Assembly: GCA_903915155.1 (NCBI GenBank)
Contig: CAIWRU010000098.1
Location: forward strand, 1 to 41,992
DNA: 41,992 nucleotides
Origin: an uncultured Mucilaginibacter sp.
Lineage (GTDB): Bacteria; Bacteroidota; Bacteroidia; Sphingobacteriales; Sphingobacteriaceae
Reading direction: 5' to 3'
Both the position numbers and the translations under genes were made by a program. Every line of letters begins with the position of its first letter. Position 1 is the first letter of the stretch. The notes beneath the pieces are model-generated. The model had not been told where the DNA came from and made no database searches. It worked only from the letters and a program-made list of their open reading frames with translations. Shown here piece by piece: positions 3,234-39,566 of this stretch.

Positions 3234-3253
3234 TTCAGTTTGCAGATAGCAGC

Positions 3254-3288
3254 GGGCAGTTAGCAGTTTTTATAGTTGCTAACTGCCC
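3254..3288. terminator. Perfect 12-bp hairpin between convergent genes
   Basis: Arms GGGCAGTTAGCA (3254-3265) and TGCTAACTGCCC (3277-3288) pair perfectly over an 11-base AT-rich loop and are followed by an AT-rich tract. The hairpin lies between two convergent genes, so it probably ends transcription from both sides. It sits inside a wider low-complexity palindrome (about 3236-3335) built from variants of GCAGTTAGC and GCCAACTGC, which looks like a dispersed repeat rather than a bespoke terminator. Confidence 0.6.
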
Positions 3289-3333
3289 ATTTTATATTTA
3301 ACAGATGCCAACTGCAAACCGCCAACTGCAAAC

Positions 3334-4812
3334 TCAAAGTGGCAGGCTGAAAGAAAAGGTTGATCCCTGGCCTTCCTTGCTTTCTACCCATATTTTGCCC
3401 TTGTGGCGCTGTATGATTTCGCTTGCCAGGTAAAGGCCTATACCAAAGCCGGATATAGTTTTAATGTTTTCGTTCTCAACCCGGTAAAATCGCTGGAAAA
3501 GTTTCTCCTGGTCTTTGTATCTTATGCCTATACCTGTATCACTAACCGAAACTTGTACATTATTGTCAAAAACACCGCTCGACACGGTAATCGTGCTTTC
3601 TTTTGGCGAGTATTTGATGGCATTGCTTAAAAAGTTGCTTACAACCTGGCCTATCCTTTCACGGTCGGCATTTATTATTATCGTTTTGCCCGGGTTAAAA
3701 ACAATTTGATGATGGTAACTAACCAGTAAGGTTTCGGTAATTATTTCGGTTATAAGTTCATTAATATCAAAAGGCTGTATCTTAACCTGCAGTTTGCCCG
3801 ATTCAAGCCGGGAAAGATCAAGGAAGCCATACACCAGGTCCGCCATTTTATTTACCTGGTTTCCGGCTTTCACCAGCGCGTTGTTTATAAACGGGTCGCC
3901 TCCTTTGGTTATCTTTTTTTCTAACAGTTGTATATAGGCTTTAAGAGATGTAAGCGGAGTTTTCAGCTCGTGGCTTGCCATAGCTATAAAGTCGTTCTTG
4001 CGTATTTCATCACGCTTGCTTTCAGTTATATCAAGTACCGTGCCCAGCATACGAATAGGCTTATGGCTGGCATCGAATATAATAACGCCCTGGGTCTTTA
4101 TCCAGCGTACTGATGTGTCAGGGCAGGTAATCTTCACTTCATATAAATACTCACCTGTTAATATCGCCTGTCTGAATGATGGCTTGATGATATTATCCAT
4201 GTCGTCAGCAGTTATCTGGCTTCGGAATGCGGCAAGTGAAAGTACCTCATCGGCATTATGCCCAAATATTTCTGCCATACGCGGCGAATACTCAAAGGTT
4301 TGGTCAACCAGGTCCAGGTCCCACGTGGCAAGGCCGGTAGCTTCATTTGCCAGGCGTAACCTATTGGCAATTTCAATAGCTTCTTCCCGGGCTTTTACCT
4401 CTTTGGTAATATCAACAACGGTATTTAATATATAGGCTATTTTGCCATCAGTACCTATGATAGGCACATTGCTGCACGACCAATGGTGTTCTTCATAAGT
4501 ATAAGTATCAGGGTCGAACATGTCATACCGGTAGCTGGGTATATCAATTTTTCGCCCTGTTTCAACCACCTTTTTAAATATGTGCTGGGCCTTTATATTG
4601 TCATCAATAGTTGCGTTTTCCGGAAAAACCTCAGAGAAACCTCTGCCCAATATGGCGTCGCGGGTAGTGGCCGTTACCGCCAGGTAGGTGTCGCTTGCCG
4701 CAAGTATAGTAAACCGCGGGGCATCAGCCTTAACCAGCAGCGATCCCGGCGACTTTTCAAATACGGTACGGAAAATATCTTCTGGTAAAGTATGCAGCGG
4801 TCCGGCGCTCAT
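3334..4812 (-). CDS. PAS-domain sensor histidine kinase
   Basis: A 492-residue histidine kinase without an evident membrane segment, so probably cytoplasmic. Two PAS domains come first (about 10-140 and 150-265); each ends in a PAC-like segment (NTVVDITKEV, GTVLDITESK). A HisKA domain follows with phospho-accepting His281 in SHELKTPLTSL. The HATPase domain has N box Asn397 (FLSNAIKYSP), G1 box DTGIGI, an F box (LFQRFYRV) and G2 box GFGIGLYLASEI. All catalytic boxes are present, so it should be active. There is no receiver domain and no adjacent response regulator gene, so it is an orphan kinase. It lies 168 bases downstream of the broken DUF2383 gene on the same strand. The signal sensed cannot be told from the sequence. 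Confidence 0.9.
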   Translation of the reverse strand: MSAGPLHTLPEDIFRTVFEKSPGSLLVKADAPRFTILAASDTYLAVTATTRDAILGRGFSEVFPENATIDDNIKAQHIFKKVVETGRKIDIPSYRYDMFDPDTYTYEEHHWSCSNVPIIGTDGKIAYILNTVVDITKEVKAREEAIEIANRLRLANEATGLATWDLDLVDQTFEYSPRMAEIFGHNADEVLSLAAFRSQITADDMDNIIKPSFRQAILTGEYLYEVKITCPDTSVRWIKTQGVIIFDASHKPIRMLGTVLDITESKRDEIRKNDFIAMASHELKTPLTSLKAYIQLLEKKITKGGDPFINNALVKAGNQVNKMADLVYGFLDLSRLESGKLQVKIQPFDINELITEIITETLLVSYHHQIVFNPGKTIIINADRERIGQVVSNFLSNAIKYSPKESTITVSSGVFDNNVQVSVSDTGIGIRYKDQEKLFQRFYRVENENIKTISGFGIGLYLASEIIQRHKGKIWVESKEGQGSTFSFSLPL

Positions 4813-17742: not shown

Positions 17743-17847
17743 AGCCCCCTCTAAATCTCCCCCGGTAGGGGAGACTTTGTTTTTTTTTGTAAATATGATA
17801 ATTTCTTTTTTAAAAGCCCTCCCTACCGGGGAGGGTTGGGTGGGGCT
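17743..17847. repeat. Inverted repeat spanning the aroA end and aroC start
   Basis: Left arm 17743-17778 (AGCCCCCTCTAAATCTCCCC...) and right arm 17813-17847 (AAAGCCCTCCCTACCGGGG...) are imperfect inverted copies around a T-rich centre. Both ends touch genes: the right arm covers the last residues and the TAG stop of aroA, and the left arm ends one base before the aroC ATG on the minus strand. This sequence type looks like a dispersed intergenic repeat. In the mRNA it would form a long GC-rich hairpin that could affect aroC translation. Confidence 0.7.
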
Positions 17848-19121
17848 ACTCTAAATCCCACCTTCTCCAAATCCTTCCAAAACGCCGGGTATGATTTTTC
17901 AACTACATCAGCATCTTCAAATTCCACTTCAGGAATAATCAAAGCAAGCGGCGCGAAGGCCATTGCCATGCGGTGATCTTCGTAGGTGTTGATGAAAACC
18001 TTTGCGGGGATATATTTTTCGCTGCAATCCAGCTTGTATACCTGTCCCTTCTCGATCAGCTTAACACCAATTTTTGCCAGCTCATTTTGCAATGCTTTTA
18101 CACGGTCGGTTTCCTTTATTTTCAGGGTTTCAAGGCCGGTAAATGTTGCTTCATGGCCCAGCGCCGCGCATACTACGATGATGGTTTGCGCCAAATCGGG
18201 GCATTCCTTCAGGTCGAATATTTTGCGGGCAATCGGTTTTACTTCCTTTTGCAAATGTACGCCACCATCCTTAAACTGCGAGGTGATGCCGAAGTTAGCC
18301 ATGATCTCGGTGATAACGCTATCGCCCTGTAAGCTATATTGCGTTAAACCGGGCAGGAACAGGTCTGCCTCATCGGCCAAAGCGGCTATCGCATACCAAT
18401 ATGATGCCGCGCTCCAATCGGGTTCAACAGGCAGTAAAGTTTCCCTGAACTCCTGGTGCACAATGCTGATCACATTATCGTTCCATTGGTGTTGAATGCC
18501 TGCCTGCTGCAACATTGCCAGCGTCATCTCCACATAAGGTTTGGACGTAAGATCGCCCTCGATGTGCAGTTCCAAACCTTGTGGTAGTTGTGAAGCGATC
18601 AACAATAAAGCCGTAATATATTGGCTGCTGATATTGCCTTTTATGCTGATAGTGTTGGTCAACTGCTCAAAACCACCTTTTATTCGCAGTGGCGGGAAGC
18701 CTTCGTTTTCTTCGTACTCAATATTTGCCCCCAGTTTGTGCAACGCATCCACCAAAATACCTATGGGGCGTTGCTTCATACGTTCGCTGCCTGTTAGTAT
18801 CACTTCATCATCCTGCAACGTAAAATACGCGGTAAGGAAACGCATGGCAGTGCCGGCGGGACCGATGTTTACCAGTCTTAAGTCTTCAGTCGATAGTCTT
18901 GAGTCAGCATTGTCTTTCTGACTTTGGACTCCCGACTTGAGACTAAGGACTTGAGCCAACGTCACCGCATCCGCAGCATCTGACATATTCTCCACCTTCA
19001 CTTTGCCTTTGCTCAGGGCTTCGATAATAAGCGCGCGGTTGCATTCGCTTTTGGAGCCGGTGAGCTGAACGGTGCCGGTGGCGGTTTTTGTTTTTTTAGT
19101 AAGGATGATATTTTTACTCAT
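17823..19121 (-). CDS. aroA: 3-phosphoshikimate 1-carboxyvinyltransferase (EPSP synthase)
   Basis: A 432-residue EPSP synthase that joins shikimate-3-phosphate and PEP. Recognised motifs are LTGSKSECNRALI, NIGPAGTAMRFLTAY, PDWSAASYWYAIAAL, CPDLAQTIIVVCAALG, KIKETDRVKALQNEL and YEDHRMAMAFAPLAL, so the catalytic core is intact. I chose the ATG at 19121; the codon before it is GTG. Two features are odd. Residues of about 59-85, between DAVTLAQVL and NIGPAGTAMR, are encoded by a palindromic repeat and are not expected from the family. The last residues (APPNPPR) and the stop lie inside a second repeat. The gene follows DAHP synthase by 7 bases. Confidence 0.95.
   Translation of the reverse strand: MSKNIILTKKTKTATGTVQLTGSKSECNRALIIEALSKGKVKVENMSDAADAVTLAQVLSLKSGVQSQKDNADSRLSTEDLRLVNIGPAGTAMRFLTAYFTLQDDEVILTGSERMKQRPIGILVDALHKLGANIEYEENEGFPPLRIKGGFEQLTNTISIKGNISSQYITALLLIASQLPQGLELHIEGDLTSKPYVEMTLAMLQQAGIQHQWNDNVISIVHQEFRETLLPVEPDWSAASYWYAIAALADEADLFLPGLTQYSLQGDSVITEIMANFGITSQFKDGGVHLQKEVKPIARKIFDLKECPDLAQTIIVVCAALGHEATFTGLETLKIKETDRVKALQNELAKIGVKLIEKGQVYKLDCSEKYIPAKVFINTYEDHRMAMAFAPLALIIPEVEFEDADVVEKSYPAFWKDLEKVGFRVAPPNPPR
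18873..18955. repeat. Palindromic repeat inserted in frame within aroA
   Basis: The segment is built from variants of AGTCTTGAGTC. One half (AAGTCTTCAGTCGATAGTCT..., 18880 onward) is mirrored by the other (...GACTTGAGACTAAGGACTT, ending about 18953), so it forms an imperfect stem of about 26-30 bp with a loop near 18906-18919. It has no stop in the aroA frame and encodes a Ser/Lys/Gln-rich stretch (SLKSGVQSQKDNADSRLS...). It resembles the low-complexity intergenic repeats seen elsewhere in this window rather than a protein domain. Confidence 0.72.
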
Positions 19122-19128
19122 CACAAAA

Positions 19129-20253
19129 TTAAGCGTGGGTCAATTTTTCAGCGGGTTGCGCTTCGCCTTTGTTCATCACTTCTGTTTGCCTGCGGATTGA
19201 TTCTGCGTGCAACAACTCTAATAATTTCTCAGTAAACTCAGGGCTTAGTTTTAATGCTTTTGCGTAAGCGGTGCGTTTTTGCAATATCTCGTCCCAACGG
19301 TTAACCTGTAAAATGGTGATGCCGTTATCTTTTTTGTACTGACCTATCTTTTCAGCTATCTGCATGCGTTCAGCAGTTTTTTGTATCAGCAGGTCGTCAA
19401 TCTTGTCAATCTTACTGCGCAGTTCCGACAAAGCATCTTTCACTACAGCATCGCTTATTTCAGGTTTGCGTAAAGCCAAATGATCAATAATTTCAGCTAA
19501 AGCGGCAGGAGTTACCTGTTGAGCGGCATCTGTCCAGGCTACAGAAGGGTCGATGTGTGATTCGATCATCAAACCTTGCATATCAAGGTCAAGCGCTTTT
19601 TGCGAGATGTAACCGATCAATGAACGGTTGCCGGTAATGTGGCTTGGGTCATTGATGATAGGCAATTCGGGCGCTAAAGTTTTAAGCTGGATGGCGATAT
19701 CCCACATCGGCTCGTTGCGGAACGCTGATTTTTCGTACGATGAGAAACCGCGGTGTATGGCTGCCAGTTTGGTGATACCCGCATTGTTTATACGCTCCAA
19801 AGCACCTATCCATAATGAAAGATCGGGGTTTACCGGGTTTTTAACCATTACGGGTACGTCAACACCTTTAAGTGCGTCGGCAATTTCCTGTACGGTGAAA
19901 GGGTTAACAGTTGAACGCGCGCCTACCCAAAGGATGTCAACGCCTGCTTTTAAAGCTTCTTCAACGTGTTTCGCGGTAGCAACCTCAACAGCGGTTGGCA
20001 AGCCGGTTTCTTCCTTGGCACGTTTAAGCCATTCAAGGCCGATGCTGCCAATACCTTCAAACTCACCCGGACGGGTACGTGGTTTCCAGATCCCGGCACG
20101 TAAAGCGGATACTTTACCTGTAGCGGCTAATAAATGTGCTGTAGCTACCAGTTGCTCTTCAGTTTCGGCACTGCAAGGGCCCGCAATTAAAAGCGGTTCT
20201 TTACCTGTTTTTATCCAGGTGTGAAGGGGTTGTATGTTTAAATTTAGTTTCAT
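19129..20253 (-). CDS. Bifunctional DAHP synthase / chorismate mutase type II
   Basis: A 374-residue fused enzyme. The N-terminal part (about 1-260) is a DAHP synthase of the Ibeta/KDO8P-like kind: LLIAGPCSAETEEQL, RAGIWKPRTRPGEFEGIG, ILWVGARSTVNPF, VMVKNPVNPDLSLWIGALERI, and PIINDPSHITGNR. It condenses PEP and erythrose-4-phosphate, the first step of the pathway. The C-terminal part (about 265-360) is an AroQ-type chorismate mutase (LRSKIDKIDDLLIQKTAERMQIAEKIGQYKKDNG, NRWDEILQKR). The mutase domain often also gives feedback control by prephenate or chorismate. It lies between pheA and aroA, so first, branch and middle steps share one transcript. Confidence 0.95.
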   Translation of the reverse strand: MKLNLNIQPLHTWIKTGKEPLLIAGPCSAETEEQLVATAHLLAATGKVSALRAGIWKPRTRPGEFEGIGSIGLEWLKRAKEETGLPTAVEVATAKHVEEALKAGVDILWVGARSTVNPFTVQEIADALKGVDVPVMVKNPVNPDLSLWIGALERINNAGITKLAAIHRGFSSYEKSAFRNEPMWDIAIQLKTLAPELPIINDPSHITGNRSLIGYISQKALDLDMQGLMIESHIDPSVAWTDAAQQVTPAALAEIIDHLALRKPEISDAVVKDALSELRSKIDKIDDLLIQKTAERMQIAEKIGQYKKDNGITILQVNRWDEILQKRTAYAKALKLSPEFTEKLLELLHAESIRRQTEVMNKGEAQPAEKLTHA

Positions 20254-20328
20254 CTTGTTTTGAGTTTTGCCGGTTAACCCGGCACTATTTATGTTTTTTA
20301 ATTTTTACTAATCTCTATTATCTAATCA

Positions 20329-21228
20329 CTAATCCCTAACCTTTATCTTTATATATTTCCTTTTTTCAGGTTTCTTGAATTGCTCGGTAGTGGGTTGTTC
20401 TTCGTGCCTTTCATATTCGCCCAAAACGTTAAAGTTGTGGGTGTATTTCAGCATCTGGCGTATGGCAGTATCATAATTTTTGCTGTCCTTCCATTCCACA
20501 TCTACATAAAAATTATACTCGTTTGGTTTACCAAGTACGGGCATACTCTGTATTTTGCTCATATTCAGGTTTTGCTCGGCGAAAATGTTTAGCACCTTAG
20601 CCAGCGAACCCACCTTATTGCTTACCTGGAAACATAACGATGCTTTATTCGGCGTGCGTTTTACCTGTGTATCATGATGGGTGATGATGAGGAAACGGGT
20701 AAAATTCTTTTTGTTCGATTCGATGCGGCGCTCCAATATGTCCAGCCCGTAGAGATTTGCGGCTAAAGTATTGGCAATAGCTACGGTGTCGGTTAACTGT
20801 TCGTCGCGAATGCGTTTAGCGCAAGCGGCAGTATCGCTGCTTTCAACGATAGTGAGATTCGGATATTCATCAATAAAATCAATGCATTGGCGTATGGCTA
20901 TGGGGTGCGAGGTTACATACTTTACATCCTCGAATTTTACACCAGGCAGCGCCATTAAATGCATTTGGATGGGGATATAAACTTCGCCCACAACCGGGAA
21001 GCCATACTGCATCATGAGCGTATAGTTTGGCAATATGCTGCCTGCTATGCTGTTCTCAATGGCCATTACCACGTAGTCAGCCTCGCGTTTCTCTAATGCT
21101 TCGAACGTTTGTTTAAACGAGTTGCATTCAATGGTATGAATATCTTCTCCAAAAAATTTGAATGCAGCCTCTTCGTGGAAGGAGGCGCGGATACCCTGTA
21201 TGGCAACTCTTGTTTTTTCGCTTTTCAT
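20329..21228 (-). CDS. pheA: Prephenate dehydratase
   Basis: A 299-residue prephenate dehydratase without a fused chorismate mutase; that activity is on the next gene. The catalytic domain (about 5-185) shows VAIQGIRASFHEEAA, MAIENSIAGSILPNYTLM, and the NFTRFLII motif (175-182) with the conserved Thr-Arg-Phe. A C-terminal ACT domain (about 196-275, KASLCFQVSNKVGSLAKVLNIFAEQNLNMSKIQSMP) binds phenylalanine for feedback inhibition; the usual ESRP-type motif is IQSMP here. It is the first gene of the aromatic operon and is preceded by a leader peptide and attenuator. The tail is strongly basic (KKPEKRKYIKIKV). Confidence 0.96.
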   Translation of the reverse strand: MKSEKTRVAIQGIRASFHEEAAFKFFGEDIHTIECNSFKQTFEALEKREADYVVMAIENSIAGSILPNYTLMMQYGFPVVGEVYIPIQMHLMALPGVKFEDVKYVTSHPIAIRQCIDFIDEYPNLTIVESSDTAACAKRIRDEQLTDTVAIANTLAANLYGLDILERRIESNKKNFTRFLIITHHDTQVKRTPNKASLCFQVSNKVGSLAKVLNIFAEQNLNMSKIQSMPVLGKPNEYNFYVDVEWKDSKNYDTAIRQMLKYTHNFNVLGEYERHEEQPTTEQFKKPEKRKYIKIKVRD

Positions 21229-37946: not shown

Positions 37947-38047
37947 CAAAAAAATGGAACTTCATTATTCATCATTCAATATTCGGTGTTCGATATTATA
38001 TTACCCATTTGATTTCAGCACTCTTCACAAATTCTTATAATTTTTCA

Positions 38048-38137: not shown

Positions 38138-39502
38138 ATGAATATTTCACAGGAAAAAATTGATAACCTGAACGCAGTTCTGAAAATTAACATCGACCCT
38201 GCAGATTACACGCCACGTGTTGATAAAGCCATTAAAGATCAGGCTAAAAAAGCTAAGATACCAGGGTTCCGTCCGGGTATGGTGCCGCCGTCGCACATTA
38301 AGCGTATGTATGGTAAAAGTATATTGGTTGATGAGATAAATAACTTATTGTCAGATACTTTAAATAAATATATCGAAGATGAGAAGTTAGAGGTACTGGG
38401 CCAGCCGTTGCCAAAAACCGGTGAAGATAACAAAGAATATAACTGGGATTTTGCCGACAACTTTGAGTTTAATTACGAAGTTGGTTTGGCGCCTGAGTTT
38501 GATATAGCCTTTTCGGCCAAAGATAAACTGACCGATTATGTAATAAAAGTTGATGACGAAACTTTAGAAAGCCGCATCAAAAATATCCGTAAAAGCTATG
38601 GCAAAATGACAAATCCTGACGTATCGGCAGACGATGATGTACTTTATGCCGAATTAGTACAGCTTTCGCCGGATGGTTCTGTTTTTGAGGACGGGATAAG
38701 CAATACCACATCGGTAAGATTAGATCAGGTACAGGATGAGAAAGTGAAAAAATCACTGATCGGCCTGAAAAAAGATGATGTGGTAACGCTGGATGTTCAG
38801 AAAGCTTATAACAATGACGCGACTCGCATCGCGGCCATTTTAAAGATCGACGAAGACACAGCGGCTGATTTAAAGTCGAATTTCCAATTAACGGTTAAAA
38901 ATGTGAACCGTTTAGCGGAAGCCGACCTGGACCAGGAGTTCTTTGACAAATTATTTGGTGAAGGTGTAGTAACTGACGAAGCAGGCTTCAGAGCTAAAAT
39001 TACTGAAGAGCTGGAATCGATGATGGTACAGGACAGCGAGCGCAAGCTACAGGACGAAATTTACCATTATGCTATTGACAAGGTGAAGTTTGATTTACCC
39101 GACGAGTTTTTAAAACGCTGGCTAAGGGCCACAAACGAAAAACTAAGCGAGGATGAATTGCAGGGTGGCTATAATGATTTCGCTCAGAACCTGAAATGGA
39201 CACTGATCGAGAACAAGATCATAAAGGATAACAACATCGATATAAAATACGACGAGGTTTTTGCCCTTGCTAAGCAGCGTTTGGCACAACAGTTCCAGAT
39301 GTACAGTCCGCAGCCTATTGCTGAGGATCAGTTAGCGCAGTACACTGTTCAGTATCTACAGAATAAAGAAAATGCCAACAAAATATTCGAAGAGCTAAAG
39401 GCGCTTAAGGTATTTGATTACGTTAAAAGCGTTGTTACTTTAGATAAAAAGGATATAGGCTTTACTGATTTTAACAAATTGGTAGCTGAGCATAAGCATT
39501 AA
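38138..39502 (+). CDS. tig: Trigger factor
   Basis: A 454-residue trigger factor, the chaperone that meets nascent chains at the ribosome exit. The N-terminal ribosome-binding domain has the signature IPGFRPGMVPPSHIKRMYG. The middle domain (about 150-260), which has FKBP-type prolyl isomerase activity in E. coli, is divergent here, as is usual in Bacteroidota. The C-terminal helical domain (about 260-454) forms the client cradle. It precedes clpP and clpX, the widely conserved tig-clpP-clpX order, but a terminator separates it from clpP. Confidence 0.94.
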   Translation: MNISQEKIDNLNAVLKINIDPADYTPRVDKAIKDQAKKAKIPGFRPGMVPPSHIKRMYGKSILVDEINNLLSDTLNKYIEDEKLEVLGQPLPKTGEDNKEYNWDFADNFEFNYEVGLAPEFDIAFSAKDKLTDYVIKVDDETLESRIKNIRKSYGKMTNPDVSADDDVLYAELVQLSPDGSVFEDGISNTTSVRLDQVQDEKVKKSLIGLKKDDVVTLDVQKAYNNDATRIAAILKIDEDTAADLKSNFQLTVKNVNRLAEADLDQEFFDKLFGEGVVTDEAGFRAKITEELESMMVQDSERKLQDEIYHYAIDKVKFDLPDEFLKRWLRATNEKLSEDELQGGYNDFAQNLKWTLIENKIIKDNNIDIKYDEVFALAKQRLAQQFQMYSPQPIAEDQLAQYTVQYLQNKENANKIFEELKALKVFDYVKSVVTLDKKDIGFTDFNKLVAEHKH

Positions 39503-39566
39503 TATTTTAGTACTTAGTAGCTAGTATCAAGTATCAAGACAAAAAATACTTGCATATAGATTATCA

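Follow-up and report, generated by a model that had tools for sequence, protein, structure and literature searches.

How does a palindromic repeat come to lie inside the coding sequence of a core-metabolism gene, and does it represent a single element that settled there once? We addressed this question in a window of 41,992 nucleotides, by which we mean the whole stretch of DNA that was analysed, whose host is a Mucilaginibacter relative. A preliminary description of this DNA had placed a palindromic repeat, in frame, inside aroA, and this was borne out. The palindrome spans 80 bp at positions 18874-18953 of the plus strand, within an aroA gene encoded on the minus strand; the open reading frame at 17823-19124 is intact, and its product matches the NCBIfam model TIGR01356 with 306.5 bits against a cut-off of 287.25. 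The parts of the locus are:

17823..19124, minus strand: aroA, EPSP synthase, with GTG at 19124 as first codon or, alternatively, ATG at 19121
18920..18953, minus strand: 5′ arm of the insert (coding sense), CAAGTCCTTAGTCTCAAGTCGGGAGTCCAAAGTC, AGTC-core heptamers
18906..18919, minus strand: spacer between the insert arms, 14 bases
18874..18905, minus strand: 3′ arm of the insert (coding sense), GACTCAAGACTATCGACTGAAGACTTAAGACT, GACT-core heptamers

The units of the insert are degenerate 7-bp words, AGTCnnn followed by GACTnnn on the coding strand, which are read in frame through AroA, and the insert as a whole is 7-periodic (p = 0.0004 against codon shuffles). Because the units are degenerate, a generic repeat finder reported neither a direct nor an inverted repeat at 18600-19200. 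The best stretch of the insert has 18 of 28 matches, one below the threshold of our genome scan, so that the insert is absent from the genome-scan lists. The addition had been put at about 26 residues, a figure that equals the length of the array (80 bp), but the net gain is nearer 11-17 residues when short array-free loops are taken as the reference. Loops of 14-20 residues with no array are common in related genera, whereas the same measuring rule gives 31 residues in the window; a short, array-free loop is likely to be the ancestral state. An AlphaFold2 model of AroA, built from 33 aligned sequences (mean pLDDT 90.3), matches EPSP synthase structures, best of all 7tm4 (TM 0.84). As supposed in the preliminary description, which had taken the insertion to be probably tolerated as a surface loop, the insert falls in a low-confidence loop of this model: residues 65-75 and 77-79, between the helix at 50-63 and the strand at 83-85, have pLDDT values below 50. 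Judged from the model, the loop is probably disordered. EPSP synthase 5xwb has, by alignment, a segment of similar length at the same position; the length of the loop therefore varies between phyla, and it is the repeat origin that stands out.

In most Mucilaginibacter loci that we examined, one AroA loop, just before the conserved NIGPAGTAMRF segment, holds a heptamer array. We compared the best 80 of 321 loci from named relatives, that is, from Mucilaginibacter or from unplaced Bacteroidetes MAGs near it. A motif rule found a loop insert in 78 of these 80 loci, with lengths of 28-60 codons (median 35). The remaining two, L143 and L150, escaped this rule because their motif is VGP instead of IGP; both stay in frame, the loop of L143 being short and array-free and that of L150 long but without a recognizable array. 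At all 80 loci the site is read through without a stop codon or a change of frame. An assembly artefact is unlikely, as the pattern recurs in named strains whose records are separate, and a search of plasmid records gave no match to the insert. Pooled over the 78 inserts, identity at a lag of seven nucleotides was 0.465, compared with 0.256 in codon shuffles, and further peaks appeared at 14, 21 and 28. Significant 7-periodicity (p < 0.01) was found in 63 of the 78 loops and in none of 78 downstream aroA controls of equal length (one at p < 0.05), counts that are not independent draws since the loci are related.

The words that build the arrays differ by species and include AGTC/GACT, GAGAT/ATCTC, GACCAT/CCATNGAC, GAAATC, GCAGT, CTCAC, CAACT and others; the insert of L125 carries CAACTGA words. 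By class labels that are simple motif counts and hence somewhat rough, 23 of 79 rows belong to the AGTC/GACT class and 14 are unclassified on both sides. No common element sequence or peptide was found among the 78 inserts. What the inserts share is an orientation: AGTC occurs 111 times in 5′ halves and 14 times in 3′ halves, GACT 15 and 103 times, and GC skew is greater in the 5′ half of 72 of the 78 inserts. In the 5′ halves AGTC is evenly spread over the three reading frames (38, 36 and 37 occurrences), which indicates that the unit is a DNA word and not a peptide; GACT in the 3′ halves falls into the three frames 39, 41 and 23 times. Since heptamers in tandem shift frame from one unit to the next, what repeats is not the peptide.

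Word classes change often at this site. On a quick AroA gene tree of 79 rows, made with the insert left out, at least 32 changes of word class are needed for the 5′ arm, at least 39 for the 3′ arm and at least 43 for both. Among 21 pairs with more than 92% AroA identity, the class label differs in 12; L093 and L136 differ in label only, their inserts being 0.86 identical, and L128 and L154 share a label (unclassified) yet have inserts that are 0.60 identical. Unrelated inserts, 0.49-0.64 identical, occur at 94.8-96.5% AroA identity (insert left out) in the pairs L087/L102, L077/L090, L095/L100 and L095/L103. The 60-bp bins that touch the insert are 0.92 and 0.97 identical in L087/L102, two MAGs whose inserts are 0.49 identical, and 0.90 and 0.92 identical in L077/L090; in the named strains they are 0.95 and 0.85 identical (L095/L100) and 0.93 and 0.88 identical (L095/L103). 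L075 and L078 both have an AGTC 5′ arm and differ in the 3′ arm. In L110/L122 and L132/L145 the spacer before aroA contains a common array and the loop arrays are nonetheless different. Close relatives with similar flanking codons thus have resident arrays that differ entirely or in a single arm. We also considered a long recombination tract carrying the insert together with its surroundings; in neither L087/L102 nor L077/L090 does flank identity fall close to the insert. In L095/L100, about 360 bp downstream of the insert are 0.82-0.87 identical, somewhat below the identity further on, which leaves room for a longer exchanged tract in this pair. A divergent patch lies upstream of the gene in L096/L098, L081/L083 and L082/L084, and for these pairs, as for L095/L100, recombination may have been involved.

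The aroA loop is also occupied more often than the neighbouring spacers. With one detector, 78 arrays were found in the loops of 54 of the 78 loci, compared with arrays in 7 of 76 spacers before aroA (49 long enough to scan, 27 too short) and in 12 of 75 spacers after it (73 long enough, 2 too short). Across the 537 kb surrounding aroA, the same detector scored two arrays in other coding sequence. Two hits scored as elsewhere in aroA straddle the aroA stop codon.

Arrays of the same kind lie between genes. Those in the window are:

3234..3268, plus strand: intergenic heptamer array, 5′ arm, GCAGTTN-type
3299..3340, plus strand: intergenic heptamer array, 3′ arm, AACTGCN-type, partner of 3234-3268
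20304..20350: intergenic array of CTAATCN-type heptamers
37958..38001: intergenic array of ATTCNNT-type heptamers
39499..39549: intergenic array of AGTANNN-type heptamers

The array at 3234-3340 lies between convergent open reading frames and has the two-arm architecture of the aroA insert. The genes beside the array at 20304-20350 are presumably those for DAHP synthase and prephenate dehydratase. In the genome to which the window belongs (222 contigs, 3.73 Mb), four consecutive GACTNNN words gave 36 overlapping matches, four of them in the aroA insert, and the backward pattern gave none. The forward pattern is present in 50 of 61 genus genomes and in 17 of 81 family genomes (9 of 25 genera). 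Backward word-pattern controls are not empty elsewhere (131 and 128 matches in G085, 0 and 41 in G020, 15 and 104 in G031), and these matches are probably other words of the same kind. The density of GACT words in a genome has a weak link to the word at aroA (one-sided p = 0.04, 30 of 61 genomes; p = 0.09 after four hits per genome are subtracted).

A sample of 303 kb from the window's genome contained 30 arrays, 27 of which were not labelled coding, and 400 kb from genome G026 contained 21, of which 19 were not coding, with genes called by a simple longest-ORF script. The five coding-labelled arrays comprise two at the start end of an open reading frame, one internal to a frame, one overlapping a frame edge and the one in aroA. 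When the detector was relaxed slightly, an array was found in 41 of the 315 intergenic gaps measuring 60-400 bp. The two halves of an array gap match as inverted copies with a score of 16.39, compared with 9.80 for swapped halves, and 20 of the 41 gaps score at least 15, as do 6.5% of swapped pairs. Array-free gaps are above their swaps as well (11.34 versus 9.06), and in two top-scoring array gaps the score comes from other palindromes; terminators and other repeats therefore contribute. In the left half of a gap, arrays are G-rich by 15 to 2 (2 equal), and in the right half they are C-rich by 15 to 1 (2 equal), a G-rich-first polarity that holds whatever the directions of the genes; a detected array stands in both halves of 10 gaps. 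Mismatches are uneven over the seven heptamer columns (z = 8.1, 51 arrays), and in none of these 51 arrays are more than three columns invariant. The insert is a member of a dispersed, mostly non-coding class of degenerate heptamers, often arranged as two facing arms, G-rich and then C-rich.

Repeats of other forms were seen alongside. In the 400-kb sample of G026 (L055-L074) there were 14 period-8 arrays besides 10 of period 7, and unit length may differ by genome. G016, G041 and G056 carry long perfect GACTAAT arrays scattered genome-wide, unlike the degenerate arrays elsewhere. A long intergenic inverted repeat containing GTCATTGCGAGGTACGAAGCAATC, another type of palindromic repeat, was observed at L060:17702-17960 (G026).

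The pairing of the two arms differs between aroA inserts. For the predicted RNA hairpin, the fold z-score is below −2 in 33 of the 78 inserts and below −3 in 20; L087 (−12.8) and L102 (−7.0) have different words and are both strong hairpins. Over all classes, the arms of one insert match each other better than swapped arms do (mean 10.28 versus 7.24; 0 of 5000 permutations). Within the AGTC/GACT class (23 inserts) own arms are no better than swapped ones (14.22 versus 14.57); the all-class match is therefore a match of word class. Covariation of the arms' variable bases was not found within the AGTC class, and some inserts pair unrelated words in their two arms. Some intergenic hairpins, by comparison, are near-perfect inverted copies, variable bases included (24 of 24, 25 of 26 and 24 of 25 positions).

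A different kind of repeat occupies the site at locus L080, where the loop contains AAAGTCTCCCCTACCGGGGGAGATTTAGAGGGGGCT, a 36-bp palindrome, in frame. Counting itself, this palindrome matches at least 40 sites in its own genome; the L075 genome gave at least 42 matches and the L078 genome 4, and all seven of the copies fetched from outside aroA are non-coding. L075, with 95.5% AroA identity to L080 (insert left out), has an AGTC array in the loop instead. L080 is direct evidence of a dispersed, mostly non-coding repeat within the AroA loop, a direct capture of an intergenic repeat. As an observation on dispersal, the 36-bp palindrome CTCCCC...GGGGGAGATTTAGAGGGGGC at L080:3196-3231 is spread through three genomes of Mucilaginibacter type, G181, G182 and G183, with several copies near the end of an open reading frame. 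For the heptamer inserts of L087, L102 and L078, no full-length, near-identical donor was found among the candidates scored. What these searches yielded was either isolated arms, some 22-40 bp long and with identity of up to 100%, or complete hairpins with 73-75% identity, and shared grammar alone could be enough to produce either. In most larger genomes the donor and repeat searches scored the first 40 candidates, so that their counts are lower bounds.

Beyond Mucilaginibacter, the heptamer test (p < 0.01) was passed by 11 of 52 distinct loops, in six genera of the family (g3, 3 of 3; g12, 2 of 2; g13, 1 of 1; g14, 2 of 13; g21, 2 of 10; g22, 1 of 1). Of 46 family loci read in one set, three gave no loop; the genome G170 of g14 was counted twice (L172 and L220), so that 53 loops tested are 52 distinct ones. 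In other families of the class, 20 AroA loops (of 27 loci fetched; 7 were not read) are short by eye. Two other genera have a second low-complexity AroA insert near residues 293-301 (loci L201 and L202; genomes G109 and G067), which is not heptameric by eye.

We compared the inserts with described systems. The most similar described case is the set of heptamer hairpins in the P6b region of the Nostoc tRNA-Leu intron, in which degenerate heptamers of the classes TDNGATT and NNTGAGT repeatedly replace each other (PMC4476775). The aroA inserts resemble them in having degenerate 7-nt units in two arms, which are predicted to pair into a hairpin in part of the set, a fixed site, word classes, and replacement of a class or region at that site. 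In the Nostoc description, the host is a group I intron, the classes are two and the stem is always built of heptamers (PMC4476775); the aroA inserts, by contrast, lie in translated DNA of a protein-coding enzyme gene, have seven or more word types, often pair weakly and belong to Bacteroidota. TAACTGA direct repeats are described from Beggiatoaceae, cyanobacteria and five Bacteroidetes, where they are mainly intergenic and often end just before a start codon; sets internal to open reading frames lie mainly at protein ends, and one inverted pair is mentioned (PMC4679880). Both they and the aroA-type arrays are mainly intergenic heptamer arrays, but the words of the window are AGTC/GACT and not tandem TAACTGA (the CAACTGA words of L125 are related to it), and two-arm hairpins, many words and a site in aroA do not appear in the part of that description available (PMC4679880). 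Rickettsia palindromic elements (RPEs) are described as families of about 150 bp with a conserved encoded peptide that have entered many unrelated genes (PMC10969869). The L080 insert, a short, high-copy and mostly extragenic palindrome, resembles REP-like dispersed palindromes (PMC3733652); the heptamer arrays differ from these in having no fixed sequence. Among the open-licence literature matches listed (titles and starts of abstracts), none concerned an aroA gene with heptamer inserts or described heptamer hairpins with two arms from Bacteroidota, and the phrase hairpin-elongation mechanism was absent.

The likeness to RPEs had been drawn in the preliminary description, and it holds in part. 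Like RPEs, the aroA insert is a palindromic repeat read in frame in a protein gene and compatible with its function (PMC10969869), as seen in the window and in the unbroken frame at all 80 named loci, and L080, whose loop holds a high-copy dispersed palindrome, is the case nearest to the RPE idea. The likeness fails for a common element sequence encoding a conserved peptide, since both words and peptides differ. As to spread into unrelated genes, the stretches scanned contained few candidates: besides the five coding-labelled arrays of the two samples, one of them in aroA, there were the two arrays in other coding sequence within the 537 kb surrounding aroA. The aroA inserts are members of neither the Nostoc P6b hairpins nor the RPEs. 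Copies of the repeat type in intergenic DNA, which the preliminary description had anticipated, were indeed found by scans of the window's genome, and the sequence of the insert, checked across relatives, is not conserved. The idea of one element domesticated once was too narrow: a single domesticated element is ruled out by the reuse of the site with different words, and it is occupied by different heptamer arrays throughout the genus, as well as in some further genera of the same family.

Taken together, these data suggest that AroA probably has a tolerant loop in which the non-coding repeats of the genome are repeatedly installed and swapped. The array in the loop would have been replaced many times, and in a disordered, tolerant loop a repeat could persist as long as it left the frame open. 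New arrays could come from the genome's own repeat pool through recombination or template switching between short matching heptamers, and the peptide of the loop would be a by-product of words that act at the level of nucleic acid. Several observations count against this reading: no full-length donor emerged among the candidates scored, the link between genome word density and the aroA word is weak, 15 of the 78 loops are non-periodic at p < 0.01, L143 has a short loop free of arrays, the tract exchanged in L095/L100 may have been longer than the insert, and mere tolerance of the site does not account for the higher occupancy of the loop relative to the adjoining spacers. Arrays might instead be made on the spot, with 7-nt replication slippage and self-templated (hairpin-primed) synthesis building both arms and homogenizing them to one word, so that a change of word would mark the birth of a new array and not an import. 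The match of arms within an insert over all classes and the near-perfect intergenic hairpins speak for such synthesis, which we regard as possible but doubtful: own arms have no advantage in the AGTC/GACT class, the same few words recur in many lineages, the uneven column mismatches are unlike plain slippage, and L080 captured a different repeat.

It is unlikely that a mobile element of the RPE type inserted into aroA and was then domesticated. A palindrome that is read in frame in a housekeeping gene, and whose repeat type has non-coding copies elsewhere, would fit that history, as would L080, but the 78 inserts lack a common sequence or peptide, the site is reused with many words, and few arrays occur in other coding sequence of the stretches examined. 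Retention of the insert as an RNA or DNA hairpin that regulates the aro operon is more improbable still. Part of the set is predicted to form strong RNA hairpins, arm polarity is fixed and occupancy of the loop is high relative to its neighbours; on the other hand, 45 of the 78 inserts fall short of z < −2, some arms carry unrelated words, and polarity in intergenic DNA is independent of gene directions. That ribosomes skip the insert in the manner of a translational bypass element, leaving it out of the protein, would be suggested by the hairpin in a coding gene and by analogy, and seems hardly credible, given that all 80 named loci are read through without a stop or frame change.

Returning to the reading of a tolerant loop with exchangeable repeats, the finding means that a core-metabolism gene repeatedly rewrites about 30-60 of its codons with repeats that are otherwise mostly intergenic. 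As a tentative extension, Sphingobacteriaceae might possess palindromic elements that are defined not by a sequence but by a grammar (two heptamer arms, better-conserved and variable positions, and the G-rich arm first irrespective of gene direction), with whole hairpins or single arms being swapped. Such elements might be made or moved by machinery that acts on single-stranded hairpins, and the aroA loop might be a preferred swap site that gives an essential enzyme a species-specific cassette. The site provides many natural variants of one protein loop whose peptide is set by DNA repeats. Constant in position, simple to align and diverse even between near relatives, it is also useful as a natural recorder of the origin of degenerate heptamer arrays, of the way their grammar is maintained and of the replacement of one array by another.
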